Shown: positions 12,832 through 62,644 of the stretch, piece after piece
Numbering within the stretch: position 1 is the first letter of the stretch
Layout: each line of letters starts with the position of its first letter
From: Pomphorhynchus laevis
Taxonomy: Eukaryota > Acanthocephala > Palaeacanthocephala > Echinorhynchida > Pomphorhynchidae
Direction: 5' to 3'
Length of the DNA stretch: 64,000 nucleotides
NCBI GenBank assembly: GCA_012934845.2
Contig: WNNJ02000915.1
Coordinates: 78,857 to 142,856, forward strand
Notes under the pieces: generated by a model
Database searches by the model: none
The model's input: the letters and a program-made list of their open reading frames with translations, nothing else
Told to the model about the DNA's origin: nothing
Position numbers and translations under genes: made by a program

Positions 12832-13443
12832 ATGCGTCTACTCAAGGACGGGTTAATAGAACATAGCCAGTCCCCCTGGCGTGCGCAGGTAGTGGTTGCT
12901 GAACATTTGGAAAAGAAACGCTTAGTAATTGATTACTCAATGACAGTTAATAGATTTACACACCAAGATGCATACCCACTATCACGCATTGATCAGATTA
13001 TTGAAAATATTTCGAAATTCGCGATATTCAGCAAACTATACATGAAGGCAACCTACCATCAATTGGTTCTTAGAGATGATGAACGAAAGTTTACCGCCTT
13101 CGAAGCCAACGGCCAACTGTTCCAAATTATACGCATGCTATTTGGACTCACCAACGCCCCAGCAGTGTTTCAACGTACTATGGATAAAATTATCAACCAA
13201 GAGAAGTTAAAATTATCAACCAAGAGTAATCTGGACAAGCTCAAGCGTGTAATTGCCAAATACAATATATCTCTTAATTCCGATAAATGCATTTACGGTG
13301 TCGATAGCATAAATGTCCTAGGAGTTCTTATTTGGAAGTGGCGAATCCGACCTGACCCACAACGGACAAGATGTCTTCTCGAAATGGAGCCACCTGCAAC
13401 ACAAGCCGAATTGAAGCGATTACTTGGATTATTCGCTTATTAG
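12832..13443 (+). pseudogene. Pol: reverse transcriptase lacking its YxDD core
   Basis: It shows 'HSQSPWRAQVVV', 'DAYPLSRID', 'KLYMKATYHQLVLRDDERKFTAF' and 'FGLTNAPAVFQRTMDKII'. It then jumps directly to 'KLKRVIAKYNISLNSDKCIYG'. The segment that should carry the YxDD catalytic motif is missing. At the junction a 17-bp block (AAATTATCAACCAAGAG) occurs twice, 22 bp apart, near 13187-13226. The RT is therefore catalytically dead. A stop follows at 13441-13443. Confidence 0.85.
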
Positions 13444-13506
13444 TCAAAATGGATATCAAAGTTTTCTGAAAAGGTAAGACCTTTATTATACGTCAACATT
13501 TTTCCC

Positions 13507-14196
13507 TTGACTGAAGAACAAATTAAAGTATTTGATTCTATCCGCAAGGATAGAGCAGACTCGGTCCTAGCAACAATCAGAGATGACTCAACATTGATGG
13601 TCGAAACTGATGCTTCATGTCACCCTGTCGCAGCTGTTCTGTCACAGGACGGGAAACCTGTTGCCTTTATGTCTAAGACTTTACACGGCAGTGCGAAAAA
13701 TTATTCAGCTGTAGAGAAGGAAGCTCTAGCCATAGTTGAAGCGTTAAAAGAATGGCGGCATTTCCTTATTGGTCGACACTTTCAATTGTTAACAGACCAG
13801 AAAAGTGTAGCATATATATTCGATACTTTTCACAAAAGTTCGATAAAAAACGAAAAAATGATTCGATGGAGGGTCGAGCTTGCTCCGTTTCGATTTGATG
13901 TCAGTTACCGTCCTGGAATCCGTAATGTCTCAGCTGATGTCTTTTCTCGAATAAACTGCTCTGCTGTTGCTGGTCCTACGAGATTGCGTGAGGTTCACGA
14001 GTCATTGTGTCACCCCGGTGTAACGCGACTATACCATTACGTTCGAAACAGGAATCTGCCATTTTCAGTAGATGTTAGAAGCATAATTAAAGATTGCAAA
14101 ACTTGTTCGCTACGTAAGCCGAGATATTACAAACCACAAAATTCTCATTTGCTAAAGGCGACCATGCCTTTTCGAGCGAATTTCGATGGATTTTAA
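13507..14196 (+). CDS. Pol: RNase H and integrase zinc domain
   Basis: RNase H motifs are visible: 'VETDAS' (Asp), 'AVEKEALAIVEALKEWRHFL' (Glu), 'LLTDQKS' (Asp). The integrase HHCC zinc region follows: 'HESLCHPGVTRLYHY' and 'CKTCSLRKPRYYKP'. In Gypsy elements the first removes RNA from the RNA-DNA hybrid and the second helps the integrase bind element ends. The frame ends at 14196, 11 bp into the next frame, which carries the integrase core. A one-base shift has split what should be one Pol polypeptide. Confidence 0.85.
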   Translation: MTEEQIKVFDSIRKDRADSVLATIRDDSTLMVETDASCHPVAAVLSQDGKPVAFMSKTLHGSAKNYSAVEKEALAIVEALKEWRHFLIGRHFQLLTDQKSVAYIFDTFHKSSIKNEKMIRWRVELAPFRFDVSYRPGIRNVSADVFSRINCSAVAGPTRLREVHESLCHPGVTRLYHYVRNRNLPFSVDVRSIIKDCKTCSLRKPRYYKPQNSHLLKATMPFRANFDGF

Positions 14197-25320: not shown

Positions 25321-28300
25321 ATGGTGCGAACAAGGCGTAAAGCATCAGCTATAGACAACAGTTCTCGTCAGCAATGTTCGCTTGGTGGATCGGTAAACAC
25401 TGGATGTTGTCCCGTATGCAGAGGAGTTTATCGGCTTAATGCTTCAGGGTGTCTTCGCGTTCACGGTCACTTGGACTCAAGATGCTCAGGCTCGGGTCAA
25501 TCATTGAATTTCGGCTCAATTAATTTGACGTCTCTAGATGGAGCTGGTCAAGTTGCTTTTGTGGGCGTGCGGGACTCCTTTGGAGCATCATCTGATCTCA
25601 GGTCGGCTACACCGCCTGTGGAGTTGTCGAGCAGTCCTTTCAAGGAACCTACGCGCACCACTTCAGAACTTTTACGCAGGGTTTGGATGCAACCCGTAAA
25701 TACGATTAAGCGCATACCGTGGAACCTGCGCCGTCGAATTGCAAATATTTACTCGTCGTTACTTTTACAGGCTATGTGTTCAAACTCATTTCACGACTGG
25801 GAACGTTTGCTATGCTTTCCGAAATTCTGTCTTGCGTCTACGATGAATCGTGCTCAAGCCTGCGATCACACTGGGACAAAGATAAGCTTGCTTTTGGACA
25901 AGTTCGAAACCGGCGAAGATGGTGATTGCTTTTCTCCATCGGATGTTCGACCCTCCAGAAAGCTCAACAGATTTGTTTCGACGAACAACGACTATTCAGA
26001 GGCGATCGAATTAACAAGAAGTGGAAATTATGGGAAAGCGATGCGACGTCTTACTTCAAGTAATATTTGCGAGTATTCACAATCCACACGCATACAATTG
26101 TCCGTGCTACATCCAGTGAACGGTGATCTCCCAGCCTCTCGCCCTCCATGCCTGACATTGCCTTTATCAGTCGACTCGGACATTATTCAGGCCGCAGTCT
26201 CATCTTTTCCTTCCCTTACTTCCCCTGGAAGCTTGGGTTTGAGAGCGGAACACTTAAAAGACATGATGTCGGTTGATCACGGGGTTCTTTTAGGGCGACT
26301 CACTTCGCTGGTCAACTACCTGATTGCGGGCTTAGCTCCAGTCGAACTTTCTCCGTTCTTAGCTGGAGCTAGTCTACTGGCCTTAAGTAAGCCTGACGGA
26401 GGAGTCCGCCCCATTGCAATTGGGGAAACATTACGTCGCTTATGTGCCAAATGCATTTGTCGAAAACTCCGGTCGCGGTTTTCAGAATCGCTCTTACCTC
26501 ACCAGCTCGGTGTCGCTACGCCAAACGGTATGGAGCAGATTATCCATAGAGTCCGTCGACTACACCATCTTCAACACCAGAATGACGATTGGGTTTGGGT
26601 CAAAGTTGACATTACCAATGCCTTCAATACGCTGAGCCGCAGATCCTTTATTGACGCTGTAAGGAGTGAGTTCCCTGAAATAAGTAGGTGGATATCCTGG
26701 TGCTATGGATCTGGTTCAAACCTTCGATTTGGGAACATGGAGCCTCTTCAATCCTTGAGCGGAGTGCAACAAGGGGATCCTCTTGGTCCCTTATTGTTTT
26801 GCCTAGCTTTGAAACCGATAATCGCCTCAATATCTACAATCGAGGGGATCGGCTTAAACTTGTGGTACCTCGATGACGGCATAGTGGGCGGAAGACCAGA
26901 GGCTGTTGGCAAAGCATTATCTCTGCTCTCTTTAGATTTTCCAGCGATTGGGTTGTCGTTAAACTGGAAAAAGACCGAACTGATAGGAAAGGCTAGTAAT
27001 ATCGATCTGGTAAAGAGATTATGCCCAGGGATTACTTTGGTTAATTCAACAGACAACTTCACAATTCTAGGGAGCCCTGTCGGTTCCCAGGAACACTGCT
27101 CATCACACCTCATTAATAAGGTACTCCCGGCACTGCAACTTGACCTAAAGACACTAGAAAACTTGCCGGACCCTCAGGTTGCTTTCATCCTGCTGCGCAA
27201 TTGCGCATCTGCCGCACGAGTAAATCATCTGATGCGTACGGTAGATCCCGCCTTCGCTCAAAAATTTTTCCGGCTTTTCGATGACTTGGTCTTAGATTGC
27301 TTCAGCAATATAACGTCTATTCACCCGGACAAGAAAACATGGTCACAAGCTTGCTTACCCCTGAAGATGGGAGGATTGGGCCTTCGAAGCTGTGTCGAAC
27401 ACTCCGCAGCGGCGTTTCTTTCAAGTGTGGAAATGGTCGCTAAACAATCGAACCTCGACCCTTACTCTTTCCCCAGTTTTGAATCTGCAATTTCTAACTT
27501 TCCGCATGATGACAGAGGACTACAATCAAATCAACGGGGTCTTTCTCACAGCATCGACGAGACTTCGCGTCGCAAGCTATTGGAAAGCGTCGATTGCTCC
27601 AATTCAGCCAGATTATTGGCAGTTTCGCGTCCGCATGCGTGTGCATGGCTGCAGGCTATACCAAACAAAGCCACGCTTATGAATCTTGCGCCGAATGAAT
27701 TTGTGGTGTTGCTTCGTATGTGGTTGGGAATGCCGCTCTGTAAGGGTGACTACCGTTGCAGACGCTGCCTTAGAATGGCAGACAAGTTTGGTTTCCACGC
27801 CCTAACCTGTCAATTTGGCGGGTACCCCGGTATTCGACACGATGGACTTCGAGACACAATATTTCAGGCGGCAGTTTCTGCAGGACTGAGAGTCGCGAAG
27901 GAGGTACCCAATCTCGTGCGCAACTTACGAGAGAGACCAGCCGACATTTTGATTTACGAGGATCCCCCTCTAGCAGTCGATTTTGCGGTGACAAACCCTC
28001 TGCAAAATGCCTACGTTTCCATGGCTGCTAAGATTCCTGGATATGCTGCAGACAGATATGCAGCATGTGTCAAGGACCGAAAATACAAGCGGAAAATGGA
28101 GGAAAGTGGGTATTGTTTCTCGGCCGCAGTTATAGAGACATATGGAGGTTGGAACGCCCAGGGGGAAAAACTTGTCAGATTCATTGCCCGATCTATGTCT
28201 TGGCGAGGCAATATTTCGTATAGCAAGGCGGCAAACCAGCTCTTTCAGCGTGTCTCGATCTCCCTGATGAGAGGGAATGCCAAAGCGATTCTCAAGAGCC

Positions 28301-29547
28301 TCGAAGATTTGGGGAGACCTATAATAGAAAGCAGTGTTGGTCTTTACGACGACCCAACCCCGCGTCTCAACCCTTCGGAATTTCTTACTCAGGTGGCAGC
28401 CTTATCCGAAGAAATCGTCATTCGAGAAACCATCCTTCCTACAGTCAGAAATGTGGACATCCATATCAATGATGTCAATCAAAATCTTCGAATCTTACAT
28501 AGCGGAGGCGTACTCGACTTTCAAACTGGGAAAGATGAAAGCCCGATCAAACAGACACCCTCATACCCCACACGCTTACTTGTGACACAGAGTAGTAACA
28601 CTGAGAACGAGGGCGTAGTGGCCACGACGAGCGTTATCGGAATAGAACAACCTTGCAATAAAACGAACCTAATAAATTTTGATTGTGAAGGTTGGACTGG
28701 ACAGAATTTTGTGATTGCTGGGGACAGTGCGGGCCACAACTTCGTGATGTCTGTATTTCTTATGTCAATGAAGAGAGGAATTCGAATACCTGATCGATTA
28801 TTTGGATTTTGCCCAGCCTACTGCTTAAGCTCGGGTATTTCACCTAGCCGACTTGTTAGCCTGGTAGGCCCATTTCTTAATTTCAGCGTCATGACGACAT
28901 GCGAAGAAACAAAGGGACTGGGGAAGGTTGTGGTTGCAGGTGGCTTTACTGATGCGCCCAATGTGATAAGGGGAATAACCATGGACACGTTTGACGTCCA
29001 GAATACCAGCATAATGAGCCGCAAATCTCCTCTTACAATTTGTATAACAAACGAAGAATTGGTGCCAAAATATTTTGAACTGGATGAGCATACATGTGCA
29101 GTAGACGCCAACGCAGGGTCAATATTGATTTTCGACTATTCAAAAGAATCAAATCAAATTATCAATTCAAATCAAGTAATAGGCGATATTGGAAGCCTCT
29201 GCTACCTGGATTATACGAAATCACAGCTGTTGTCACTGGATTCAATCCGCCTCGGAGGACCGGGACTGTACGAGATGCCGACAAATATGTGTCCGCGAAC
29301 GCCACTCAACAGCCTGCCGAATCCAGCAAGGGGAACGGAAAGACGTCAGAGGCAGAGAAGTCGACGGATGTGGCAGCAACAGAGGAGGACAACGACGCTG
29401 TTTTTCTTACCGCCTCGGAGGACCGTGACTGTACGAAATGCCGACAAATATGTAGACACCTTGCAACAGCTTGCCGAATCCAGCAACGTGGACGGGGAGA
29501 CGTCAAAGGCAGACAAGTCCACGGATAAGGCGGAATCAAAAGAATAG
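25321..29547 (+). CDS. RT / RLE-like retrotransposon polyprotein with lipase-like C-terminal segment
   Basis: 1,408 codons from the ATG at 25321. The N-terminus is basic with a possible zinc finger (CCPVC, then H...H...C, residues 29-60). The RT has 'DGGVRPIAIGETLRR' (359-373), motif A Asp430 ('VDITNAFN'), 'GVQQGDPLGPLLF' and motif C 'WYLDDG' (515-520). A zinc/nuclease region follows: C813-x2-C816-x9-H826-x3-C830, then 'RHDGLRD' (839-845), 'RPAD' (872-875) and Asp887, the layout of restriction-like endonucleases in R2/Utopia-type LINEs. From about 1010 to 1408 the sequence is atypical. Residues 1125-1196 resemble hormone-sensitive lipase (AGDSAG 1133-1138; 'SPSRLVSLV' 1174-1182). The last 100 residues include an out-of-phase tandem duplication. 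The RT and nuclease motifs look intact. Confidence 0.88.
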   Translation: MVRTRRKASAIDNSSRQQCSLGGSVNTGCCPVCRGVYRLNASGCLRVHGHLDSRCSGSGQSLNFGSINLTSLDGAGQVAFVGVRDSFGASSDLRSATPPVELSSSPFKEPTRTTSELLRRVWMQPVNTIKRIPWNLRRRIANIYSSLLLQAMCSNSFHDWERLLCFPKFCLASTMNRAQACDHTGTKISLLLDKFETGEDGDCFSPSDVRPSRKLNRFVSTNNDYSEAIELTRSGNYGKAMRRLTSSNICEYSQSTRIQLSVLHPVNGDLPASRPPCLTLPLSVDSDIIQAAVSSFPSLTSPGSLGLRAEHLKDMMSVDHGVLLGRLTSLVNYLIAGLAPVELSPFLAGASLLALSKPDGGVRPIAIGETLRRLCAKCICRKLRSRFSESLLPHQLGVATPNGMEQIIHRVRRLHHLQHQNDDWVWVKVDITNAFNTLSRRSFIDAVRSEFPEISRWISWCYGSGSNLRFGNMEPLQSLSGVQQGDPLGPLLFCLALKPIIASISTIEGIGLNLWYLDDGIVGGRPEAVGKALSLLSLDFPAIGLSLNWKKTELIGKASNIDLVKRLCPGITLVNSTDNFTILGSPVGSQEHCSSHLINKVLPALQLDLKTLENLPDPQVAFILLRNCASAARVNHLMRTVDPAFAQKFFRLFDDLVLDCFSNITSIHPDKKTWSQACLPLKMGGLGLRSCVEHSAAAFLSSVEMVAKQSNLDPYSFPSFESAISNFPHDDRGLQSNQRGLSHSIDETSRRKLLESVDCSNSARLLAVSRPHACAWLQAIPNKATLMNLAPNEFVVLLRMWLGMPLCKGDYRCRRCLRMADKFGFHALTCQFGGYPGIRHDGLRDTIFQAAVSAGLRVAKEVPNLVRNLRERPADILIYEDPPLAVDFAVTNPLQNAYVSMAAKIPGYAADRYAACVKDRKYKRKMEESGYCFSAAVIETYGGWNAQGEKLVRFIARSMSWRGNISYSKAANQLFQRVSISLMRGNAKAILKSLEDLGRPIIESSVGLYDDPTPRLNPSEFLTQVAALSEEIVIRETILPTVRNVDIHINDVNQNLRILHSGGVLDFQTGKDESPIKQTPSYPTRLLVTQSSNTENEGVVATTSVIGIEQPCNKTNLINFDCEGWTGQNFVIAGDSAGHNFVMSVFLMSMKRGIRIPDRLFGFCPAYCLSSGISPSRLVSLVGPFLNFSVMTTCEETKGLGKVVVAGGFTDAPNVIRGITMDTFDVQNTSIMSRKSPLTICITNEELVPKYFELDEHTCAVDANAGSILIFDYSKESNQIINSNQVIGDIGSLCYLDYTKSQLLSLDSIRLGGPGLYEMPTNMCPRTPLNSLPNPARGTERRQRQRSRRMWQQQRRTTTLFFLPPRRTVTVRNADKYVDTLQQLAESSNVDGETSKADKSTDKAESKE
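28693..28908 (+). other. Hormone-sensitive-lipase-like segment inside the RT ORF
   Basis: The 72 residues encoded here align by eye with the nucleophile-elbow region of animal hormone-sensitive lipase. Conserved pieces in the same order and spacing are 'AGDSAG' (active-site Ser at codon 1136), 'GIRIPDRL', 'SPSRLVSLV' and a Cys after 'PFLNFSVMTTC'. The upstream oxyanion HGGG motif and the later Asp and His are not visible, so this is a fragment, not a working enzyme. Flanking residues (about 1010-1124 and 1197-1320, including 'GKVVVAGGF') are unassigned and could be further captured sequence. Confidence 0.7.
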
Positions 29548-36868: not shown

Positions 36869-37233
36869 CAAGCACTTGCACTGCAAAATAGTAATTTAAT
36901 TTTAAATTTACTACAAATTTTCATATTATGACATATGCATAATATGAAACATTTTTTTAATTTTACATTGTAAATCGATCGTAGACATATATTAAATTCA
37001 TTTTGTTGATAAAATTATATGTGCATTTTAAAAATATAAAATGATATTTTATAAATATATTATACATATTATATTTATATTTTATAAATATAATATATAT
37101 ATCTCAATAATTATTTTAGTTATTTTAAAATAAAATAATTAAAATAAAATCTTCATTAAAAAATTTAATGAAGATTAAATTTTTACATACATCTTTTTTA
37201 AATCTTCATTTAAACGTTTAAAATTAATTAAAT
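36869..37233. other. AT-rich spacer
   Basis: No gene. Runs of ATATTTATATTTTATAAATA type and A/T-only stretches. Confidence 0.5.
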
Positions 37234-37298
37234 ACGGCACACGAGTCATGTCTTTGAAGTACCAGAAAGATTTCTGGTACTCATGACTCGTGTGCCGT
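37234..37298. repeat. Long two-part hairpin
   Basis: ACGGCACACGAGTCATG (37234-37250) pairs exactly with 37282-37298. Inside, AGTACCAGAAA (37258-37268) pairs exactly with 37271-37281, leaving a 2-base apex. It lies 44 bp upstream of the hammerhead core at 37342. Confidence 0.95.
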
Positions 37299-37341
37299 CT
37301 GCCAGTCCTCCTCTGTATCCAGCAGTGGGAGGGATCTGGCA

Positions 37342-37382
37342 CTGATGAGTCATTGTGATGACGAAACAGTACTTGCTACTGT
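37342..37382 (+). ncRNA. Hammerhead ribozyme-like core
   Basis: CTGATGA (37342-37348), stem II GTCAT / ATGAC closed by TGTG (37349-37362), GAAAC (37363-37367), then stem III ACAGTA / TACTGT with a 5-base loop (37366-37382). The catalytic core consensus (CUGANGA...GAAA) and two stems are perfect. A convincing stem I is not evident, so activity is uncertain. Hammerheads of this kind occur in Penelope-like elements and animal retrozymes. Confidence 0.75.
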
Positions 37383-37808
37383 TATCGTCCTTATTCCGCG
37401 TCTGGCTAGAAATGATTGCGTACATAGTTCACGCGGAATGGTCTCACACGCTCTCTTGTAAGTTTTATTTATTTTATCCAAATGCATGTTTTTTAAATTA
37501 GAATTAATTCTGATTATATTCAATATTAATTTCGCAGGAAAAACTATTTTAAAATTGGTACGTAGCCAATCAAAAGCGGTATTTCATTTTTACATAATTT
37601 AATCTTTGAAATTTTTTTAAATTTTTGAACCAGGACCACAAAACACTAATTTACCTTTATATTCGATAGCTACTGCTATTATAATAATAGAAACAAAACA
37701 CAATTTCTTTAACAAAGCAGAATTAAATTTCAAATTAAAATAGCTCAAAATCAAGAAATATCTCAATTCAAGCGAAAACTGAAATATTCATATCAGACTA
37801 TATTTAAT

Positions 37809-42229: not shown

Positions 42230-43577
42230 GTAGGTACATAGAAACGTAGAAGTAGAAACATAGATTAATATAAAATTAATATTTAAATCAATAAAATATA
42301 TTAAGATATCATAAATTAATAAAATTAATATAAAATTTTTAATTAATTTTAAGCATAACTTAGACATTTTTACAAGTTGAATAAAAAATGTTTACAACTT
42401 ATAAATAAATTAAAAGAATATTTCAAAAAACTAGAGCGTATGATTTTTATGTTTAAAAGTAAGCTGAGAAGAGGAACATATACGAATTGCAATCAACGAT
42501 GATAATCTAACGTACGAAAAACCGTCAAAAATACAATCATTTTTTTGAAAAAACGGAATTATACTTTGACTTCTATTATTATGATTTTATCATCTTAAAT
42601 TTTATTATTACGATCTTCGATGATTAAAATATGATTAAAATAAAATTTCGATTACATTCTAAGATAATTTAATTAAGGGTGAAATCCACATTTCTTAAAA
42701 TATTTGACGTACACTGGCATAAGGTATCTCTATTAAGTTGTACCATCTTGGGTGAAAGCCGATTTTAAAACTATTTTAAGTGGTTATACAGCTTATTATT
42801 TGAATTCTTAAATCAATGAACTAGATTAAAATCTATTGAAATAAAAACAAGAAAAAGACAAAAAACAAGGTTAATAACAGTGAAAAAAACTGGTCAATTA
42901 TTGTAAAATATATAATTTTTATTAAGAATGGAAAATCTATATATATTCTTTATCATTATTATAAGTTTAATAAAGAATCAGGAATTGATTTTAATTAGGA
43001 ATTGTTTCCTTGACAAGAAGGAAACAAATAAATATCGAATTAGACAATATAAGATACTAAATGCAAAGACAAAAACACAAAATATCAGTGAACTGAGTTA
43101 AACCAATTTTTAATATACCAAATATAAAAATAGAAATTAGGAGAATAAATATTTCTCTAATTCGAATATTTTTAGTTTAAATTTTTGTTTAATACTTCTG
43201 TGAACTGAGTAATAGACTAATATTAAATCATATTCAAACAACTTACATAAGTCTAAATATAAATGTTCCTACTTTAAATATTTAACGTATCTTTTGATTC
43301 AATATATATATATTGTTATTGCGAGAAATCGCTTGAAACTGTGATACAGGAGAAAAGCTAGCTACGATTGATTTTTAATCCACATTTGCTGATAAATAAC
43401 CGAACTCCGATCATCAGCTATATCAGTCTAATGTATCACTCCGAGACGTAGCAAACCACCCAGCAGTCATCGTCAGTCGGATGAAGTGGTTAGGGTGCGT
43501 TTCGACTGCTTTTGTGATAACTATAAAGACACCAGCAATTCCTCACGATGCTAAACAAAACTCAGGTGCAGAAAGCG

Positions 43578-43581
<4 letters not shown>
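42230..43581. other. Gene-free AT-rich stretch
   Basis: If the exons at 41861 and 53973 belong together, this is intronic. No coding signal seen. A less AT-rich block at 43318-43580 looks like a repeat fragment but is unassigned. Confidence 0.45.

Positions 43582-43652
<71 letters not shown>
43582..43652. repeat. (TA)n microsatellite
   Basis: About 35 uninterrupted TA units. Confidence 0.99.
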
Positions 43653-43657
<5 letters not shown>

Positions 43658-43716
43658 ACGGCATTTTCTAATCGGTGTGACTCAGGATTGATAAAATCAA
43701 TTCTTTCCATATATAA

Positions 43717-43952
43717 ATGTAGATATTAACTAACCGAGCCAAATCAAAAACAAAATGACAAAATGTATATTTTTTAAAGCTTTCGGCGTGAGCCTTCTTC
43801 AGTAATTTACTAATCTAAAATCTTTTAGATTACTAATCTTTACTAATCTTTAAGATTAGTAAATTACTGAAGAAGGCTCACGCCGAAAGCTTTAAAAAAT
43901 ATACATTTTGTCATTTTGTTTTTGATTTGGCTCGGTTAGTTAATATCTACAT
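43717..43952. repeat. 100-bp perfect inverted repeat carrying a hammerhead-like core in each arm
   Basis: 43717-43816 is the exact reverse complement of 43853-43952, with a 36-bp spacer. Each arm contains CTGAAGA, then A, stem II GGC-TCAC-GCC, then GAAAGC: plus strand 43867-43890, minus strand 43802-43779. The core fits the hammerhead consensus CUGANGA...GAAA. Stems I and III are not obvious. Confidence 0.9.
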
Positions 43953-44107
43953 ATATATAATCCGAGTATTAATATATACAAGTATCCGTCAAAGGATCCC
44001 GGAGCTGATTTGAATAAATAATCTAAACTATATATATATATATAATCTGTTTAATTATCAGTTAATTAATCCAGAGAACAAAAACTTCTAATTTATTAAC
44101 ACAACGC

Positions 44108-49035: not shown

Positions 49036-49620
49036 AGGATGGTCCGGAAAGCACATGGTTAGTGTAAAGAGGCTAGACCCATGCTACCACGTTAGCAAAT
49101 TCTCGGAAATGCCTATTTATTATATCACAAAGCAGCCGAAACGACTGATGGTAGTTCACCCTACTGATGAGTGCTGCCGATTACCATCAGCTCGTCTAGG
49201 AGTGATAAGGAAGTCTGCTCTACTTGTAATCGAACTCCAGTTTTTGGCAACATCTACAATTATGAAACTGAAGCCTATTAGCACCGGAGCACAGTTTAAC
49301 AAAGTCAGATATTAAATTATAAAAATGTATCCTCTAAAGGATTCTGTGAGAAAGCAAGCAACGACAACAAGTAAAATTCCTGCTGAATAAAATTAGGATG
49401 GTCCGGAAAGCATATGGTTAGTTTAAAGAGGTTAGACCCATGCTACCACGTTAGCAAATTCTCGGAAATGCCTATTTATTATATCACAAAGCAGCCGAAA
49501 CGACTGATGGTGGTTCACCCTACTGATGAGTGCTACCGATTACCATCAGCTCGTCTAGGAGTGATAAGGAAGTTTGCTCTACTTGTAATCGAACTCCAGT
49601 TTTTGGCAACATCTACAATT
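49036..49620 (+). repeat. Dimer of a 355-bp unit with hammerhead boxes
   Basis: ATTAGGATGGTCCGGAAAGC at about 49035 recurs at about 49391, with near-identity over about 230 bp. Each copy has GCAGCCGAAACG and, 30 bp later, CTGATGAGTGCTG. CAGC/GCTG and C/G next to the boxes can pair as stem II, giving a circularly permuted hammerhead arrangement. Stem I is not evident. Frames of about 70-98 codons across both copies look like by-products. Confidence 0.7.
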
Positions 49621-49742
49621 ATATATATGTTAAATTTTCTGCTGTTAAGATCTATTTTCGACTTATATATTGATTTTAATTTATACTTACAATATATAAG
49701 CTGGAAATAAATCTTAGCAGCAGAAAAATGTAACATTTAAAA

Positions 49743-49945
49743 TCTATTTTAAATTTTAATTAGCAATTGATTATGGTCTTATGCAAGCATCGTTGACCAT
49801 CAAACAATTTATTGGCTGTTTTCATGTGCTCAATCTTTTTTATTTTATTGGCCTGTTTGTAAGCATTTAAAGTGCTTCGTTAATTTATAGTAAATTAAAG
49901 GATTTTAAAACAGTTAAATCCGTTTTAAAGGTAAAAGCCAAAGAA
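49743..49945 (+). repeat. Partial copy of the inverted-repeat arm
   Basis: It matches the outer 200 bp of the right arm (AATTAGCAATTGATTAT to AAATCCGTTTTAAAGG) with about 10-15 percent differences and one short insertion (near 49832). Confidence 0.85.
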
Positions 49946-53972: not shown

Positions 53973-54473
53973 CTGGCACTAAATGAATTCGGTCCAAGAA
54001 TAATTTATGGTGACACGTCTATTCGTTATTTCAATGTCAGCTGGAGCAGACTATTATCGGACAGTGATAAAAGAGGAATTACCGCTCGTGAGCTACCCGA
54101 AAATTACATTCCCAAATATACATGTTCCAATATGTTCAAGTGGTTTCGAGAGTATTCACTTGATCATACAAAAAATCTAATTACGGAAGCAGGTCTTATA
54201 GTGATATCTTACGACTCGATAATATCGCATGTATTAATGAGAGCTTGGATTGCTTGCGCTCTTGATATGTCATGCATTACATGCACAACATTTGATGGAA
54301 TTCACCGCTACGACCAAAGCGCATTCAGTATTCTGCTAACTTTCTTCTACTTGCCGTCTAACAACGAGACCAAGAACGTATCAAAACCTAGCGTATATGA
54401 TGTTTTAAATTCAATTGATGTCGACATTGCTGTTGTAATGAGAACAATGGACTTTGGTGATTTCGACAAGTAA
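53973..54473 (+). CDS. Candidate terminal exon, DUF1647-like protein
   Basis: An AG at 53971-53972 after a pyrimidine-containing stretch precedes an open frame of 166 codons ending in TAA (54471-54473). Residues include 'GDTSIRYF', 'AGLIVISYDSIISHVLMRAWIACALDMSCI', a Cys pair and 'HRYDQSAFSILLTFFY'. From memory this order (a DTSIR-like segment, a membrane-proximal alpha/beta segment, a CALE-type Cys region and an HRYDQS motif) is typical of the C-terminal half of DUF1647-type, probably Golgi glycosyltransferase-like, proteins of insects and nematodes. The acceptor phase (0) fits the donor at 42230. Surrounding DNA is repeat-rich, so this may be a gene fragment. Confidence 0.5.
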   Translation: MALNEFGPRIIYGDTSIRYFNVSWSRLLSDSDKRGITARELPENYIPKYTCSNMFKWFREYSLDHTKNLITEAGLIVISYDSIISHVLMRAWIACALDMSCITCTTFDGIHRYDQSAFSILLTFFYLPSNNETKNVSKPSVYDVLNSIDVDIAVVMRTMDFGDFDK

Positions 54474-54884
54474 TTAACAGAAGATGATAGTTTAATTAAA
54501 CTCAAAGTTAACGTTCTATTTCGTAGATAAAGACAAAATTATTTTATATTTAATACGGAAATGTTTTTATTTCGAGCTTTTAAAATGTTAAATTTCGTTA
54601 TTATTAACGAAATTAAAAATCCATTTTTATTTATTTATAAAATCCATTTTTATCAGTTTCGTTCAAACGTTTTGATTATCAATCGGACAATAAAAGCGTT
54701 TCTGTTTGCAACTAACTTCTTCGCTATTCAAACTTCAAGTTTTCGGAATCAAGAGCTATATTGGTAGCTGAGAGGTGAGTTTTTGCTGTTGATATAGTTT
54801 AGTTTAGTTTATTTATTTTTTATTTTTTTATTTTTTTTTGATTTTTGTTTGTTGTATCTGCTTTTTGTTTTTTGTTTTTATTTA
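54474..54884. other. Spacer, T-rich at the end
   Basis: Possible 3' flank of the preceding exon. A 68-codon frame (54561-54767) has no recognisable feature. 54800-54890 is T-rich low complexity. Confidence 0.4.
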
Positions 54885-54946
54885 TTCATATATATACATC
54901 TAACATAAGTACGTAAGTACAGTTGGAAGGAACTAATTGCCTTAAG

Positions 54947-56280
54947 CCAGTTGGGAAGAGAAAATCTTCTTCCCAGCTGGAGGAAAATTTAAAAAATATA
55001 GAAAAAGAATCTTCAGTGCAAAAGAGGCTCTTGCCTATAAAGCAAGACTCTTTTGCACTTAAAGTAACATGTAAAGAAAACCATAATCTAAACAAAAAAT
55101 AAGAGAGATAGAGAGGGAAATAAGAAAAACTGTTCGAGGAGAAATCTTCGAACGGTTTTTCAAAAGAGATAATTTCTACCGAATCTCTTTCAAAAGCTTA
55201 GCTTTGAAAGATAAATTCAAAGCGGCTTTAGTTGGAGAAGAGGGTATAGAAATTATCGACATTTCTCCACAAGTGACGGCCATCCTTAGGGATGTGCCGT
55301 CATTTGCGGAGAAAGAAGATGTTGAAGAATTCTTACATCAATATGATGTAAGGATTCTGAAAACATGCAAATCATACAATCAATCATATAGTTCCTTTCT
55401 TTTGAAGGGAACTATATGTAGTTTGAAAAAATTAAAAGAAGATGGAGGCAGCATCTGCGGACATCGAATATCTGTAAAGATATTCGACGAAGACGATGCT
55501 GCCTTTCGGTATCCGCAGTGTTATAGATGTCAGCGCTGGGGACATTTTTCGAACATGTGTCGAGAAGTGTCACCGCGTTGCGTCCACTGCGGAGAAGAAC
55601 ACGAAACACAAGCATGTGGAAATAAAAATAGGCCGACATGTGCAAACTGTAGGCAACCTCACAAGGCGTACTCACACGTTTGTCCAGAGTTCAAGTCTTA
55701 CTTGGCCTGGGTAAACAGTGAGAACAAGAAGGCTTGTGAGGAAGCTCAGTCCTACCTTAGGGCAGCCAAAAGTCACTCTCTGGATCAACACGCTGAACAA
55801 GCAGCGATGCTGATCGAGAGAGTACTTACTCTTGAAAAAGAAATGGCTGCCTTAAGGCAGGAAAATGCAAAATTAAAAAAAGATACTGTAATCCACGAAT
55901 CCGATTTGAAGAAATTCAAATCGGAGTTGAACGCAACAACATTACGCAAATACAGATCGTTGAAACAGGAGAAAGACAAGTCATCGATTTCGGTGACTAC
56001 TTTTAATCGTTTCAACGATTTGTCACAAATACAAGGCCCTCAGAATGAGGACAATAATAATTGTTCAGTAGTATCGACGGATTCTGAGGGTCTTTCGATT
56101 AAAGCGCCAGGGACTGCTATAAAGATGCTGACGTTACCTGAATCACTTCAGGTGGCGTCGAGTCGGAGGGGCAGTTCCTGGCACAAAGCTTCGAATGCAA
56201 GAAAAAAAACGAAGAATTGAGTATTCTTCGCTTGAAGACATCTGCCTAATGAGTTGGAATATAGGTTCTGTTAAGAACCT
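54947..56280 (+). repeat. Cluster of hairpins across ORF1 of the LINE
   Basis: Stems (arm pairs) include 54947-54959/54968-54980; 55015-55059 (12+6 bp with 2-nt bulge); 55125-55140/55145-55160 (GAAA loop, wobble pairs); 55163-55170/55183-55190; 55274-55285/55290-55302 (TTAG loop, one bulge); 55326-55339/55345-55358; 55385-55399/55404-55418 (TTTT loop); 55446-55455/55495-55504 with inner 55464-55472/55479-55487; 55900-55910/55915-55925 (GAAA loop); 55956-55966/56009-56019; 56035-56046/56081-56092; 56130-56142/56147-56159 (TCAC loop); 56210-56217/56223-56230; 56263-56269/56274-56280 (GTTA loop). G-U pairs are allowed in several. Confidence 0.9.
55087..56220 (+). CDS. LINE ORF1: zinc-knuckle Gag-like protein
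   Basis: Open from 55087 to TGA at 56218-56220, but the first in-frame ATG is past 55550. The native start must lie upstream in another frame or be lost; 55204 (TTG) is only a convenient boundary. The N-terminal part ('VTAILRDVPSFAEKEDVEEFL', 'VRILKTCKSY') resembles an RRM-like ORF1 region of Jockey/I elements. Three CCHC-type knuckles follow at about 55519-55560 (CYRCQRWGH), 55576-55616 (CVHCGEEHE) and 55639-55683 (CANCRQPHK). A Lys/Glu/Leu-rich stretch suggesting a coiled coil follows (55800-55960). By family knowledge it coats element RNA. Confidence 0.8.
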   Translation, partial: SKQKIREIEREIRKTVRGEIFERFFKRDNFYRISFKSLALKDKFKAALVGEEGIEIIDISPQVTAILRDVPSFAEKEDVEEFLHQYDVRILKTCKSYNQSYSSFLLKGTICSLKKLKEDGGSICGHRISVKIFDEDDAAFRYPQCYRCQRWGHFSNMCREVSPRCVHCGEEHETQACGNKNRPTCANCRQPHKAYSHVCPEFKSYLAWVNSENKKACEEAQSYLRAAKSHSLDQHAEQAAMLIERVLTLEKEMAALRQENAKLKKDTVIHESDLKKFKSELNATTLRKYRSLKQEKDKSSISVTTFNRFNDLSQIQGPQNEDNNNCSVVSTDSEGLSIKAPGTAIKMLTLPESLQVASSRRGSSWHKASNARKKTKN

Positions 56281-58747
56281 GATACAGTATTTCAGTCTCA
56301 TACCGGCAGATGTGCTTCTCTTGCAGGAAGCAAGATCACCCGATCAATTGAGGATTTTTAGCAGCAAGATCGACGACTGCGACACATTTGTGTCAGCAGA
56401 AGGTCTCAGGATGGAACTCTTCCTAGTGTCGGTGGTAAAGAAGCGTTTTTGCGCATCTTTACTATCGCATGGCACTAGCGAAGTAGGTTCATTCCAGCTC
56501 CTCCGGTTTTTCATCTCTAGACGCCCAGTTTATGTAGCAAATTGTTACATCAAGCCGGGGGCCTGGAGTTCGAAAAAGGGGAGGAGAGAGATTCGATCAA
56601 TGCTGTTGAAGATCTTCAATTTGGGTGGTCAATTTTTAATTGGAGATTTCAACGACGACGGTGGGTCTCGGGTGGGCAGCATGATCGCTCCAGCATGGGA
56701 GGTCATATGTCCCCCGGAAGGGACATTTATCCGTCGTCGCAATGGTTATTGCTCCACGTTAGATTTTGCTATGCAAAACAAAAATACAAATTTTAAAATT
56801 AAATGGCAGCAGAATTTGCTGCCAGATACTTTTAATGATGGGCATAAGCTTGTATATTGGTCGTGGAAGGAGGAACTAGTTTTCAAGATAAGATTCCAAC
56901 CGACACGGGCCGGTATACAAGCTTTTAATAGATCAATAAGCGAAGTAATGATAAATTTAAATAATAAAGATATTTTTTGTACTATTTTAAAAAATACTTT
57001 TAATGAAATAATAAATTTTAGTATTTGCAATAATAATTTTATAATAAATAATAATTTTAATTTTTTCGATTGTTTGAATATTTTAGATGAGACGTTTTTG
57101 ACAAATTTTACAAATAAATTAAAAGAATCAAATTCTCTATTAATTTTAAATAATGAAATTTTTAGTAATGCAAATAAATTTTTAACTACTAAACGACCGC
57201 CCAACATCAAGTACACTCCTAAAGCTCTTCATTTGAAACGTATTCTCTGGGGTTTACGAACGGATACGAATCCTTCGTCTCAGAGAATCGCTCAAATGGC
57301 TCTGCTCAAGAATGATATTCAAGAGTTGGAGCAGAGGGTAGACGCTAAAAAGTTGCTGTCTTACAAGAATTTTTCAAAGGAATGGTGGCAAACCATTAGG
57401 CGAACCACCTTCCGTTCTTGGAGGGCAGCGGCTTCTAAGTGGATATCCTCTAAGGGTTTTGGGAATGTACTTCATGAAATGAAAATGAAACACCTAGCCA
57501 ATGCTGAAGGATGGACCGAGAGGAAAATGATGAAGATCCGTATGGAACTCTTGTTTTCGACAATCGACAATTCGCAAGAGGACATCACTATCGAGGACAT
57601 TTTGAGTGCGTGGCCAGTCGTGCCAAAGACTTCGTCTAACGGGTCTTCGGCATGCGCTGCTGCGACCAAATTGGTCGTCGATAGGGTTCGGACGGATATT
57701 GCTGCCAAGATGCTAGGAGTACCTTTAGCATCTTGGTGTGATATTGCGGTCGGAAAAGTGGTGTTCCTTGCGAAGGGAAGATGGGTGTCGAATGCTAAAG
57801 ACACAAGACCCATAACAATATCTAATAATATTGTTATGGTGTATGAGAGAGCTCTTGCTAGGATCCTTTCCCGATTCTACGAAGATCGTGATATGTTAGG
57901 AGACCACATTCACGGGTTTCGTAGAGGAAGGGGAACTGTTAAGGCAGTAAGGTCCATGCAGAGTTTTCTCACCAGCGATAGACGACCTGCAGTCCTCTAT
58001 TCGCTGGATGTGTCGGCGGCCTTCGACAACTTGGGGCATGATGCAATAGTTACAACGTTAACCAGTGATGGTATTCCGAGTAATTTGTTGCATCGTGTCC
58101 TGGGTATATTAAAAGCAAGAACTTTCTACTTGGATGATGACGGGGGTAAGTACTATCATCTCAACAAAGGACTTCCCCAGGGCTCACCTCTGTCTCCTAT
58201 CATTTATATGATAGTGACGAGGGGAGTTCTGGAGGGTCTTTTGGATAGGAACACCCACGCCATCATTTATGCGGACGACATCTCGATCGCATTTAAGAGA
58301 AATACTCTGTCGGATGCAAGGTTTGAAGGGCGAATGAAGTCTGTAATGGACATTGTTGCTCATCGCTTAGCGAAGTTTGGCTTGTCTTTAAACCCAGCGA
58401 AGAGCAATTTTGTTCATTACAGATTTCGGCGTCCTGGAAAGCACACTCGTCTCCTCGATTCTCTTCCAGGGAATCGAAAGCGTCGGGTGCGCATTCTGGG
58501 ATCCGTTTTCGAACCACGTTTGCATCCTAGGTCAGATATGGCCAGGTGTTTCAAATTAGTTAGAAAAGGGCTACGTATGTTTGAAAGAGCGAGACGATTA
58601 AATGCCGGTTTGGGTAGATGTGTAATTGTGCTCAATGCGTTTGTATTGAGCGGATTGTACTTCTACTCAAACAATCGCCCTCCAGAACAACGATATCTAT
58701 TTTTAAAACGATTATTAATTTTAATAAATAAATTTTTTATGAATTAA
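56195..58747 (+). CDS. LINE ORF2: endonuclease and reverse transcriptase
   Basis: 850 codons from an ATG that precedes the ORF1 stop. The AP-type endonuclease has 'MSWNIGSVKNL', 'LLLQEARS', 'YVANCYIKPG' and 'LIGDFNDDG' (about 56640-56666), with 'FNDGHKLVYWSW' near its end. A very AT-rich linker (about 56935-57190) follows. RT blocks are 'AKGRWVSNAKDTRPITIS', 'HGFRRGRGT', motif A Asp at 58007-58009 ('SLDVSAAFD'), motif B 'LPQGSPLSPIIY' and motif C 'YADD' (58268-58279), ending with 'RILGSVF'. The RT C-terminal part is short compared with Jockey ORF2. No internal stop. A hairpin spans the ORF1 stop codon just inside this frame. Confidence 0.85.
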   Translation: MQEKKRRIEYSSLEDICLMSWNIGSVKNLIQYFSLIPADVLLLQEARSPDQLRIFSSKIDDCDTFVSAEGLRMELFLVSVVKKRFCASLLSHGTSEVGSFQLLRFFISRRPVYVANCYIKPGAWSSKKGRREIRSMLLKIFNLGGQFLIGDFNDDGGSRVGSMIAPAWEVICPPEGTFIRRRNGYCSTLDFAMQNKNTNFKIKWQQNLLPDTFNDGHKLVYWSWKEELVFKIRFQPTRAGIQAFNRSISEVMINLNNKDIFCTILKNTFNEIINFSICNNNFIINNNFNFFDCLNILDETFLTNFTNKLKESNSLLILNNEIFSNANKFLTTKRPPNIKYTPKALHLKRILWGLRTDTNPSSQRIAQMALLKNDIQELEQRVDAKKLLSYKNFSKEWWQTIRRTTFRSWRAAASKWISSKGFGNVLHEMKMKHLANAEGWTERKMMKIRMELLFSTIDNSQEDITIEDILSAWPVVPKTSSNGSSACAAATKLVVDRVRTDIAAKMLGVPLASWCDIAVGKVVFLAKGRWVSNAKDTRPITISNNIVMVYERALARILSRFYEDRDMLGDHIHGFRRGRGTVKAVRSMQSFLTSDRRPAVLYSLDVSAAFDNLGHDAIVTTLTSDGIPSNLLHRVLGILKARTFYLDDDGGKYYHLNKGLPQGSPLSPIIYMIVTRGVLEGLLDRNTHAIIYADDISIAFKRNTLSDARFEGRMKSVMDIVAHRLAKFGLSLNPAKSNFVHYRFRRPGKHTRLLDSLPGNRKRRVRILGSVFEPRLHPRSDMARCFKLVRKGLRMFERARRLNAGLGRCVIVLNAFVLSGLYFYSNNRPPEQRYLFLKRLLILINKFFMN

Positions 58748-59008
58748 ATTGAAATTAAAAATAAATTAATTAAAAAATATGTTTTATTTTACAATTTGAA
58801 AATCAAATGTTTTGAATAAGTTTTTGTTTATCTTGTTTGGAATTTGTTTGATTATTTTTCTAAACTTAGATGTATATATTAATTTTATAGTGCGCTTGCC
58901 TACAAGTGCTTTGTCAGAGAAATTAAGAAAAGTATAATTAAATGTATTATATCTTCATTTTTTTGTCATTGTTTAAATGACAAAAAATATTTTGTTACAA
59001 AATATTTT
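56707..59008 (+). repeat. Further hairpins in ORF2 and the 3' region of the LINE
   Basis: Perfect or near-perfect stems: 56707-56713/56720-56726; 56804-56811/56817-56824; 56846-56856/56913-56923; 57381-57386/57392-57397; 57621-57630/57643-57652 (one mismatch); 57663-57668/57672-57677; 57705-57715/57726-57736; 57810-57821/57828-57839; 58197-58203/58208-58214 (TTAT loop); 58455-58461/58471-58477; 58630-58636/58645-58651; 58961-58970/58976-58985; 58984-58994/58998-59008. Confidence 0.9.
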
Positions 59009-59050
59009 TTATTTTTTATTTTATTTTTTTGGTAATATCAATTTTATCCA

Positions 59051-59399
59051 AATTTTGTTTTTTATGATGATTTTGAATTTTTATTTTTTAGAATTGAATT
59101 TTAGCAGTTTATCATTTTTAATTTTTGTTTAAAATTCTTATCCTCGACATCCAACCAAAGAAATCTCAATCGAAACCTGCAAAAAGAAAGAAAAAAGAAA
59201 AAAGAACGGAAACTCGATGGGGCTCCATACTTGGCTGGGGTCGAAAAAGTCAGAAAAAAAACGAAAATATATATGAATTTTGTGTTTTTTACTTTAATAA
59301 ATCATTAATTTTTTTTAATAATAAGGTTTTCTTAATAAATTAAACAAGGGAATAAAAAAGTCACAAAAAATAAATAAATCATCCAGACTGAAAAGCGCA
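59051..59399. other. T/A-rich junction between two LINEs
   Basis: Low-complexity T-rich and A-rich runs and a 72-codon frame (59125-59343) rich in Lys with no recognisable feature. It holds the 3' ends of the plus-strand LINE and of the minus-strand LINE, facing each other. Confidence 0.4.
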
Positions 59400-62300
59400 A
59401 AAAGCAGTCAGCCACTAGACGTTGTTCGTGCATAAATATTTTAAAGAGTTAAATGGAGGTAGCAAGAAACAAGATGGGAGAAAGAAGGTTCCTTGTATCA
59501 CACCCGTAATAGGGTAGAACTAACGCGCATCAGGGTCGTCCTCATAAAATAATCGCTTTGTATACAACAGTATCTTCATCCTGTTAACAATTCTCACAGG
59601 CAACCCGAGGGATCTGAGAGAAGAGATAACAAAGGGAATAAAGATGCGGTCAAATGCAGCAGAAAAGTCAAGCAAAACAACCACAGCGAGTTGATGACTA
59701 TTTTCTTGACAGAACTGATGCATTTCACCTACTGCTGAATGGACCGAGCGACCTTTGACGAACCCATGGAAACTGTTGGGATTAAATTTCGCCTATTTAG
59801 ATGATCGCGGATTATACGCGCAAGCGTTTTATCGTAGATTGAGACGAGAGAATTTTGAATTTAAATGGACCGCAGGTCTTTAGAACATAAGACCGAATTG
59901 TTCTTTGGTAAAAATATTCGTCTACAAATGTTGATGCTGGCTACATCGAATGGGGCGGCTAATAGCATTGTGACGGCTACTTCTCTACTTTGTTCGGCTG
60001 TTGAAAGCTGACAGACACGAAAATATTGTGGAGCGATGGATTTGGAGGTGCCAGGTAGAGGCCCCTAAGAGTTAAGGATATCTGAGACAGATAGATCCCT
60101 ACTCCTAACGTATCCCCAGGGTGGAATTGGTTGAGGTGATTGAGTGGCTCCATAATTATGTAGAGATAGTGACTCCTCTAAAACTTTGTCAACACCTATT
60201 TTACCAATCCAACCCAAAGCTCTATCCTTCCAACAAACAACCTTATCCTTCTTGAATATCTTCAAGAAGGAAGACTAAGCTGGATTACGAGAAGTAATGC
60301 TTGCCCTATCCTTACCCAGTTGGAACCTATATCTAGTGCTCCAATATTCTTTCGAGAGAATTTGCCTGGCAGAAATAAAGAGATTGAGAAGACGGAGCAT
60401 AAATGCTAAGGTCTTGAGTTTTGTCGGAGTGGGACTGAAAATACGACCTTTGTAGGTAGTCAAAAGTATCGCGGTACTTTGCGAATAAAGGTAGGAATTA
60501 AATTCGGTTAGACTCTCATTACTAATTCAGGGGGTAGTGTTGGATAGCTGCCTGAAAGAAAGCTACTCTGATCGGATCAAAGTGGAATCTCGTTCAAAGC
60601 AACGTATCCTCTTCTATCCGCCAGCGAATCAGGTCATGAGAGGTGGACAGATGTCGTCGCGACTGCTCCGTGCAGTAGGGTTTCAATAACCATCTCTCAT
60701 GGATCAGTAATAAGTCGAGGTGTGAATTCGTTGATGTGCAATGAAAGGTGGGAGACGGTGATTTATGAATAAGATAACCGTTCCTAGCTCTGCGGAGTGC
60801 TGCATCAATCGAACGACAAGTTTTGTCGTTAAAAGTACCAAGTACCATGCCATAGCCGTTATCAATAATCCTATCCAGGAGGTCACGGTTCTTGTGAATC
60901 CTCCCTGGACGGATGTAGACATTGGCTAGACTGGGGCGTTTCTTATTCTTACAGAGTGAAACTACTAAACAAGGCAGGGCTGGACAAGAATAGTTGAGTA
61001 GAAGGGACGATCTTAAGAAACATTTAACTAGGGTTAAGAGTTCTTGAGATGAAGAGGAGTGAGGGGGTTGTGTACGGAGTATAGTGGGAACAAATGTGCT
61101 TAGGGATGAATCAAGTAATGTCCTTGGAAGACGGATAGACCGCGTCTCCTGAATGACTATAACATCTGCATCTCTGCCAGATAGAAGTCTAAGGGCAGAA
61201 GCTTCTCCTAAATTCCACTGAAAAATATTCAGTTAAAAAGGCTCACGAGTACTCTGCATTGTGTTAGATCAGTTGGGTGGGATTGCCTTATCCCTAGACA
61301 GAGCTAGGATCGGAATAATTGCCCTTCTCGCCACCAACTCTGTTCTGGGCGAGCACTCGCCCACGGGCATTGTCTTTATTTTCATTTGAGGCGCTTTTGT
61401 CCTTCGCTTTCAGGAATTTTCCGATCTTGATGGGGGAACGGAATGAGCCAATACACCCCTCTTTTTAGATTCTGGCATAATTTGTTGCTTGGAAATTTCA
61501 GGCGAAGAGTACAATGCCGAAAGTATACCGGCCGCCATACTTTCCATCTGTTTTAATATGGATAGTTTATTAGAATCTATAATTTAGAGGATATCCTTGT
61601 CCGACATTCTTGAAGCTGCTGTGGAGAAGTTTGCATCATCCTTCTTAATTTGAGCCGGATGAGAAAACTTCATCCTATAGTTTTTAAAGACGAAGCATTT
61701 GCGGGACCAAGCTGAGTGGTCACCGTGGCAGTTAGAATATTAGGGGAGAGCCCCGCATTTCTCCCCCTTAACTTAGCTTTGACAGGAATCAAGGCTACAT
61801 ATACCACTGGATTTTTTGTTGAGGCAACTAGAGCCTAACAAACATTCACTAGGCTCTAAAATTGTTAGGCTTAATACTCCACCATTTTTGATGGGGTCAT
61901 TGGGGCTCCCCTCCAATGCCCCCCATCAAGTACGGTAACCTTCACTGCAATGGCATACATTGCAATGGGGGTAAGTGAGATCGTCTGCATCAAGTACGGT
62001 AAATTTAAGATTGTAGCCAAGAAATGGATTAAACACGGAGTTCGCGAGAATTTCTGCATTATCCACCGACGACGAACAAATGCAATTGATTAAGAAAAAC
62101 CATTTTTAATCTTAACAGATCGGAAATTTGCTAATTTGTATACCCGTTTGAGTGATTCTAAATCTTTATCCTCTAAGTGCGGAGGTAATTTATTAATTTT
62201 TTAAAGAGGCCTGAATCGTTTTGTAATGTAACGTACCAAATTGCTTTAAATTCGAGTTAAAGAATCTTTCATACTCCTTTGCTATATCGCATGAAGCGAA

Positions 62301-62644
62301 GAAGATCTTAATTTCCGATTCATAAAGTTTAACAGAATTAAAAATAACTTGATTTTTATAGTTGCTAACGAATGGTCGTAGGTAAATATTAAATAACTTG
62401 TGCCTTTCTTGCGACTGGGTTAAAGATACAACGACTAAATTCTTCAATTTGGGGATAGAGGGAGTAGCTTCGCTCCCGGCTGATTAACAGACAATAAATC
62501 ACTTACTTGCTTATCTTGAATATCAGAAAAAATCGTTGGAATACCTTTTGAAATAGCCGTTTTGCTTGAATTATCACTCATCTTTAAAGCACAGATTGTA
62601 CTTATTGCTCCTGAAAAACAGCTTATGTACATTTTAAAAAACAT
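59400..62644 (-). mobile_element. Jockey-like LINE, minus strand, decayed but uninterrupted
   Basis: On the minus strand the order is ORF1 (62644-62193 with 'RHKLFNIYLRPF' and 'YESEIKIFFASCDI'), a zinc-knuckle region broken by frameshifts (about 62060-61680), the endonuclease ('FNDKTCRSIDAALRRARNGYLIHK' split over 60850-60740; 'STSHDLIRWRIEED' near 60610-60650), the pre-RT block ('WIGKIGVDKVLEESLSLHNYGA', 60265-60120) and the RT ('LLDFSAAFDRIFIPFVISS', near 59680-59620). All parts have close counterparts in the plus-strand LINE at 11246-19925, and here they are contiguous, which proves the nested insertions there. Many stops. Confidence 0.85.

Follow-up and report, generated by a model that had tools for sequence, protein, structure and literature searches.

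GORS, as described from RNA viruses, consists of several hundred consecutive stem-loops whose individual pairings are poorly conserved (PMC7642675). The values of MFED (mean excess folding energy) printed in that paper include 15% for SARS-CoV-2 and 23.4% for a deltacoronavirus, given there as the highest recorded among vertebrate RNA viruses, and structured viral transcripts are described as less well recognised by mammalian cells (PMC3950689). The RNA structures of LINEs are discrete elements in the papers cited here, for example the 3′ stem-loop of L1 (PMC5135761) and the 5′ ribozyme of R2 (PMC3774820), and our search of open-licence papers found no LINE with a structured coding region, in agreement with an earlier note on this DNA that knew of no described LINE of such organisation. 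The genome of Pomphorhynchus laevis is reported to consist of about 66% repeats, with LINEs making up about 52% of its TE content (PMC7943196). In the window, by which we mean the whole stretch of 64,000 nucleotides that was analysed, one LINE carries a dense row of hairpins in its coding sequence that seems to be maintained by evolution, which is unexpected for such an element. The element is of a known type and shows, in an extreme degree, a property that RNA viruses are known to have.

The likeness to GORS lies in a coding-wide folding excess that arises from many consecutive local stem-loops and extends over the whole RNA rather than residing in discrete elements, although it is weaker in the ORF2 linker and the 3′ region. 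As in GORS, pairings are poorly conserved between relatives while foldedness is kept (only 12 of 48 hairpin domains keep at least half of their pairs in family B), and some related groups have the trait while others lack it: against the 3% threshold given in PMC3950689, MFED is 47% in the family of the window copy (A), 38% in family B and 28–32% in family C, and 2.4% in family D. The values of 47% and 38% exceed those printed in PMC7642675, from which our calculation differs in shuffling program, step and number of shuffles. Unbroken helices are short here, one of 21 bp and the others of at most 17 bp, whereas GORS duplexes never exceed 11 bp according to an unpublished analysis mentioned in PMC3950689. 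The bearer, moreover, is a genomic LINE with endonuclease, reverse transcriptase (RT) and dispersed copies, not a plus-strand RNA virus, and is therefore better called GORS-like in its working than filed as a GORS virus. In its other traits it resembles AP-endonuclease LINEs, namely in an ORF1 with three putative CCHC knuckles (by eye), an ORF2 with endonuclease and RT, 5′ truncation and some direct repeats. Family D has this same architecture in 372 + 910 codons (L045, L046) and differs in having no folding excess.

Anatomy of the element and its relatives

The main parts of the element and the families compared with it are as follows.

54650..59316, + strand: whole LINE copy of family A, with ends common to other copies in the genome
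54650..54733, + strand: 5′ monomer-like sequence, tandem upstream in some other copies (by eye)
55087..56220, + strand: ORF1, 377 codons stop to stop, densest folding, three zinc knuckles by eye
56132..58747, + strand: ORF2 of 871 codons (stop to stop), coding for an AP-type endonuclease and a reverse transcriptase
56780..57200, + strand: AT-rich, weakly folded linker of ORF2, from the folding windows
L031–L033, L035, L036, L038, L042: family B, about 66% nucleotide identity to A and 60% amino-acid identity in ORF2
L034, L037, L039: family C, older, about 83% identity to B
L045–L048: family D, two fetched copies with 372 + 910 codons open

A LINE is indeed present where the earlier note placed one, at 54947–59008, while its true extent is larger: most family A copies start at 54650–54653 or 54733–54736, and the 3′ end lies at about 59316. 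The label 'Jockey-like' is plausible from the RVT_1 match of ORF2 (E 2.9e-31), a borderline endonuclease (Exo_endo_phos, E 2e-5, a narrow pass with 24.9 bits against a cut-off of 24.5) and the three CCHC knuckles seen by eye in ORF1, where zf-CCHC scores below the Pfam cut-off (E 0.0093); on these features the element probably belongs to the AP-endonuclease LINEs of the I/Jockey/R1 group. A DNA search of the genome (249 Mb in 3242 contigs) gave at least 44 matching stretches for family A, of which 30 were fetched and aligned. In this alignment 673 of 908 minor variants are singletons, which indicates that the copies are recent. Both hallmarks of target-primed reverse transcription are present, 5′ truncation in L026 and L027 and short direct repeats at the ends of L013, L024 and L027, the copies in which they were scored by eye.

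Some further observations concern the 5′ end and the flanks. Family A copies open with either of two short tandem monomers, of about 26 and about 33 bp by eye (compared in 54650–54790 and the 5′ flanks of L002 and L008–L022), as if one LINE had swapped its 5′ promoter unit. Ahead of ORF1, long T-rich tracts separate a splice-donor-like GTGAGT at 54775 from an ACAG at 54919–54922 that resembles an acceptor. The ORF1 frame of L003 and L004 extends upstream to about 54917, with no methionine among the 70 residues read, and the window copy has this N-terminal stretch in a different frame from the remainder of ORF1. A host ORF at 53973–54470 adjoins the element and has 92% identity over 96% of its length to a P. 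laevis hypothetical protein, which marks the host as this acanthocephalan or a close relative. On the other side, 59400–62400 on the minus strand holds a decayed LINE of a more distant family, whose folding excess is mild, averaging 9% on the sense and 8% on the antisense strand.

A protein search of the genome with the family A RT gave 88 matches, and families B, C and D were chosen from this search, a further DNA search and a protein search with a C copy. Family D is 44% identical in the C–D RT comparison, 35% to A over ORF2 and 32% to A over ORF1. The protein database yielded 10 matches at E ≤0.001, the best with 25% identity over 31% of the query, and no relative was confirmed in the viral contigs searched; all families compared accordingly come from one genome.

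Hairpins and folding excess

Between 54880 and 59050, there are 17 perfect stems of at least 7 bp with loops of 3–10 nt, against 3.8 ± 1.7 in 60 local dinucleotide shuffles (maximum 9), and eight stems of at least 10 bp with loops of at most 40 nt, against 0.5. The stems thus go beyond chance, as had been claimed, and they were not reproduced by codon-preserving shuffles, the control that the earlier note had set against its own reading: ORF1 holds five perfect stems of at least 7 bp with loops of at most 10 nt (0.71 in the shuffles) and ORF2 nine (1.35), and none of 100 shuffles reached the observed number for either ORF. The perfect-stem excess is 4–5-fold over dinucleotide shuffles and 7-fold over codon-preserving shuffles in either ORF. 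When G-U pairs are allowed, the corresponding count for ORF2 becomes much less extreme (24 vs 17.8, with 8 of 100 codon-preserving shuffles reaching 24), and that for ORF1 is still reached by none of 100. The two comparison elements proposed in the note have no enrichment (25321–29547, 1 vs 2.2; 4921–7850, 1 vs 1.6).

With pairs limited to 100 nt, the folding energy of ORF1 is −455 kcal/mol, compared with −246 ± 10 in 30 codon-preserving shuffles (z −20.7), and that of ORF2 is −821 compared with −565 ± 15 kcal/mol (z −17.1; 30 shuffles). The gain in ORF1 is all local, being 136 kcal/mol at a span of 40, 212 at 100 and 201 at 250, whereas in the RT half of ORF2 it still rises from 152 to 191 between spans of 100 and 250, which implies that some helices there are longer-range and are cut by the 100-nt limit. 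All five hairpins that the earlier note gave with coordinates are present, and the following list includes them.

55015..55059, + strand: 5′ hairpin with a perfect 12-bp outer stem; L031–L033 have a 16–17 bp stem with a core in common
55124..55161, + strand: hairpin of 17 pairs, two of them G-U, with loop GAAA (predicted fold)
55319..55366: hairpin of 20 pairs with a perfect core at 55332–55352
55385..55418, + strand: hairpin of 15 pairs, one of them G-U (predicted fold)
55445–55505 and 55506–55598, + strand: two abutting hairpin domains (predicted fold)
56210..56230, + strand: perfect 8-bp hairpin whose loop holds the ORF1 stop codon (56218–56220)
56409..56495, + strand: long hairpin of 35 pairs, 25 shared with B's predicted fold
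57343..57441, + strand: hairpin domain of 34 pairs, 28 shared with B's predicted fold
57705..57736: perfect 11-bp hairpin with a loop of 10 (perfect-stem search)
57810..57839, + strand: perfect 12-bp hairpin with a loop of 6 (perfect-stem search)
57861..57955, + strand: hairpin domain of 38 pairs, 25 shared with B's predicted fold
58165..58243, + strand: hairpin domain of 33 pairs that covers the RT core, 26 shared with B's predicted fold
58336..58427, + strand: hairpin domain of 32 pairs, 22 shared with B's predicted fold

The folding excess is found in windows across both ORFs, is densest in ORF1 and is weaker in the linker and the 3′ region. Weaker structure in the AT-rich linker had been noted before and was found again (z −2.7 for the window at 57001, against −6.8 to −15.8 for the five windows starting at 55001–56001). 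Of the accompanying claim, that hairpins also extend into the 3′ region, only part is borne out, folding there being weak (mean MFED 9.7%, 3 fragments). A perfect 13-bp AT hairpin does occur in the 3′ region, at 58982–59010; changes common to six copies break six of its pairs, and in this the region is unlike the coding part. An RNA family search of 54600–59400 gave no match that reached its gathering score; weak matches to HLE, GA-cis and SurA fell below that score and were taken as chance matches on hairpins.

Scanning the 64 kb in 300-nt steps gave a median excess of 43% in the 17 windows in the element and of 3.4% in the 235 outside it. A z below −4 on at least one strand occurred in 17 of the outside windows; in several of these the two strands scored equally, the pattern expected of inverted repeats. 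At 37001–37550, 43501–44050 and 49501–49800 the excess is strong (z −5 to −16) and similar for the two strands, again the pattern of inverted repeats; these stretches lie in an AT-rich part that also holds putative Penelope-like ORFs.

Mean MFED (350-nt fragments, step 75 nt, 15 dinucleotide shuffles) is 47.1% sense and 38.4% antisense in family A (45 fragments), 38.1% and 31.9% in family B (48 fragments), and 28.2% (L039, 47 fragments) and 32.0% (L037, 20 fragments) in family C, as opposed to 2.4% sense and 1.8% antisense in family D (47 fragments), whose folding z values of −2.6 and +1.3 represent no excess. Other elements of the window are likewise near zero (LINE 4013–7344, −0.6%; LINE 25321–29544, −1.5%; LTR element 11495–14193, −0.2%), and the flanking ORF is at −3.9% (2 fragments). 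In the RT region only, MFED is 38–41% in five A copies, 32–39% in B, 24–36% in C and 4–6% in D; a value of 14% for L040 comes from a stretch that includes foreign sequence and was left out as evidence. The D homologue of the RT-core domain 58165–58243 folds no better than shuffles (z +1.3). Family A thus belongs to a folded clade, with D its nearest unfolded relative here. Because D thrives with 910-codon frames unfolded, the trait is not needed for a LINE of such build.

Pairing maintained in the sense RNA

The earlier note took G-U pairs as a mark of structure kept in RNA, and the mispairs in the stems agree with it. Inverted copies in DNA should decay to G-T and A-C equally. In stems of at least 8 Watson-Crick pairs located by a strand-blind detector, G-T and A-C stand at 38:12 in family A (11.8:10.1 in shuffles; p 0.001) and at 39:12 in family B (9.7:8.8; p 0.0004), these p values being one-sided with pairs taken as independent. 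A-C counts are near background in both, and an excess of G-T only speaks against a DNA-level origin. The ratio is 34:13 in a second B copy, 13:4 in L037 and 5:4 in the old copy L034, shuffles of all three giving about 1:1, and 6:11 in family D (8.5:12.1 in shuffles). Selection on the sense transcript would produce such an excess of G-U without A-C, and the sense RNA seems to be its target. Sense folding also exceeds antisense folding beyond the codon null in 5 of 5 A and B stretches tested, although antisense folding is itself far above its null, and in L034 the antisense strand folds slightly better than the sense strand (dinucleotide null). GNRA loops make up 14 of 56 tetraloops, compared with 37 of 388 in codon shuffles, and beyond this enrichment no common loop or stem motif was found around the 56 tetraloops.

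The fold of A was mapped on B by protein alignment, with pairs taken in stacks of at least four. Doubly changed pairs that still pair number 100 of 170 from A to B (70.8 ± 6.0 permuted) and 79 of 149 from B to A (62.6 ± 5.3), neither reached in 2000 permutations. Pairs of A able to form in B number 557 of 837 in ORF2 and 202 of 338 in ORF1, against 453.5 ± 9.9 and 171.8 ± 5.9, respectively, in synonymous shuffles. The excess of double changes over this synonymous null is modest, 77 vs 63.5 ± 5.8 in ORF2, where some shuffles reach 77, and 36 vs 32.1 ± 3.9 in ORF1. Among single structures, the long hairpin at 56409–56495 has both-side changes at 8 of its 35 pairs in eight sequences of A, B and C (24 both-side-change cells vs 9.1 in shuffles) and loses its pairing on sliding by 1 to 3 columns, and all 15 pairs of the hairpin at 55385–55418 are also predicted in B, three of them through both-side changes. 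The perfect hairpin at 57810–57839, on the other hand, could form 10 of 12 pairs in B and has none in B's predicted fold. Homologous copies thus give a divided answer: compensatory changes are present, while roughly three in four hairpin domains pair differently in the two families. With so few domains kept, foldedness appears to be maintained more than particular helices.

Random drift would not have left this much folding. In a control with 12 fragments per sequence, MFED of A falls from 53% to 31% at 5% drift, 17% at 10%, 3.5% at 20% and 2.4% at 34%, whereas family B, about 34% distant from A, holds 38%. As far as predicted folds can tell, folding is upheld between A and B while its parts are re-drawn. 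Evidence from within families is more mixed. Among the 30 A copies, pairing survives changes found in at least three of them more often than it survives singletons (25/50 vs 130/418, p 0.010), and such shared changes fall less often in firm pairs (12/46 vs 201/450, p 0.018), but within firm pairs the difference in pairing kept is not significant (8/12 vs 77/201, p 0.07). Fixed B–C differences keep pairing in 59 of 130 cases, more often than C singletons (52/162, p 0.02) but no more often than B singletons (52/122, p 0.70), and at pairs of p>0.9 the comparison is not significant (17/34 vs 23/64, p 0.20). Fourfold sites are identical in 68 of 139 cases where paired in both folds and in 24 of 113 otherwise, a test that is partly circular because conserved letters give like folds.

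Possible roles of the folding and rival explanations

The hairpin structure predicted for families A and B is very probably real. Good support exists here for an excess of folding that does not depend on protein or codon usage and that belongs to the sense strand, for compensatory changes, and for the folding being maintained between A and B. Of the earlier proposal of selection for a structured genomic RNA, the part that stands is RNA structure kept on the sense strand, as indicated by the codon null, the G-U pairs, the compensatory changes and the drift control. Selection would act on overall foldedness and not on individual helices. A compact RNA with few open stretches may be less accessible to host RNA-level control, such as small-RNA-guided silencing and single-strand nucleases, and an RNA so shielded might persist longer between transcription and reverse transcription. 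Worms are not known to have interferon, and by analogy lower access for small-RNA silencing or nucleases would be the favoured form of a GORS-like reduction in host recognition of the LINE RNA. Given the structure, such shielding is a tentative proposal, for which we would put the chances slightly below even; the explanation as a whole is the best we can offer and is held with the same reserve. The host encodes RNase III enzymes (6 matches), and hairpins of at least 30 pairs, such as 56409–56495, might themselves be RNase III substrates, which would go against shielding.

The main rival, which we consider unlikely, is an assembly code in which the ORF1 protein, through its zinc knuckles, would bind many dispersed stem-loops and compact the RNA into a particle; assembly through dispersed stem-loops has been proposed for some small RNA viruses. 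Structure is indeed densest in ORF1, spans of at most 100 nt give the whole ORF1 gain, and tetraloops are enriched, GNRA foremost, yet among the loops and stems no common sequence is prominent (GAAA, the commonest, makes up 7 of 56 tetraloops), most hairpins are re-drawn between A and B, and family D has a similar ORF1 (32% identity) without the structure. Control of translation, through pausing along ORF1 and ORF2 or reinitiation at their junction, is improbable as an account of hairpins across most of 3.6 kb, since it covers local elements only. Two such elements fit it, the ORF1 stop codon in the loop of the perfect hairpin 56210–56230 and the ORF1 ATG of family B in a hairpin stem (L031 337–359), although B could form 5 of the former's 8 pairs and is predicted to form none of them. 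This stop-codon hairpin sits just within the start of ORF2.

Template switching by the reverse transcriptase or a polymerase, which the earlier note had offered as a process that writes short inverted copies, would make the hairpins a by-product; many stems are perfect, antisense folding is far above its null, and template switching could also mimic compensatory change. We regard it as very improbable and disfavoured by the mispair test, in which the excess is of G-T only (38:12 and 39:12) where DNA-level decay predicts A-C equally, and it also runs against the sense over antisense difference in A and B beyond the codon null, the GNRA enrichment and the lack of a hairpin excess in the intact sister D. 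Chance, base composition, codon usage or repeats can practically be dismissed: some simple-repeat ORFs score too (L020), but the dinucleotide, codon-preserving and drift controls and the agreement of three families stand against them.

If the reading of a maintained, pervasively folded LINE RNA is correct, such folding is not private to RNA viruses and can evolve in a genomic retrotransposon, to a degree above the printed virus values and with a sister family in the same genome, D, that is without the trait. With A, B and C on one side and D on the other, there would be a natural pair on which the purpose of GORS could be tested away from vertebrate immunity, in a setting that rules out interferon as the answer. 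It would also mean that synonymous sites of LINEs can be strongly constrained, which matters for the dating of copies and for work on evolutionary rates.

Folding is not confined to this clade. Among 45 other ORFs of at least 150 codons from the window and the fetched loci (50 before near-duplicates were dropped), five exceed their codon shuffles by over 20%. Two of these are simple-repeat ORFs; the other three, two DIRS-like pieces and a distant LINE ORF1, leave room for the reading, which we doubt, that a host-specific pressure at the RNA level drove a number of unrelated retroelements in parallel towards hyper-folded sense RNA. D and, in the window, the R2-like and CR1-like elements, all of them unfolded, would then escape the pressure by another route. 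A putatively DIRS-like RT fragment at L048 3–1442, with an RVT_1 match, has an MFED of 28.4% over 3–956, and 24% sense and 13% antisense over 1–1500. The distant LINE ORF1, at L014 6549–7073, has about 24% sense and 21% antisense and is about 26% identical to the ORF1 of family A.
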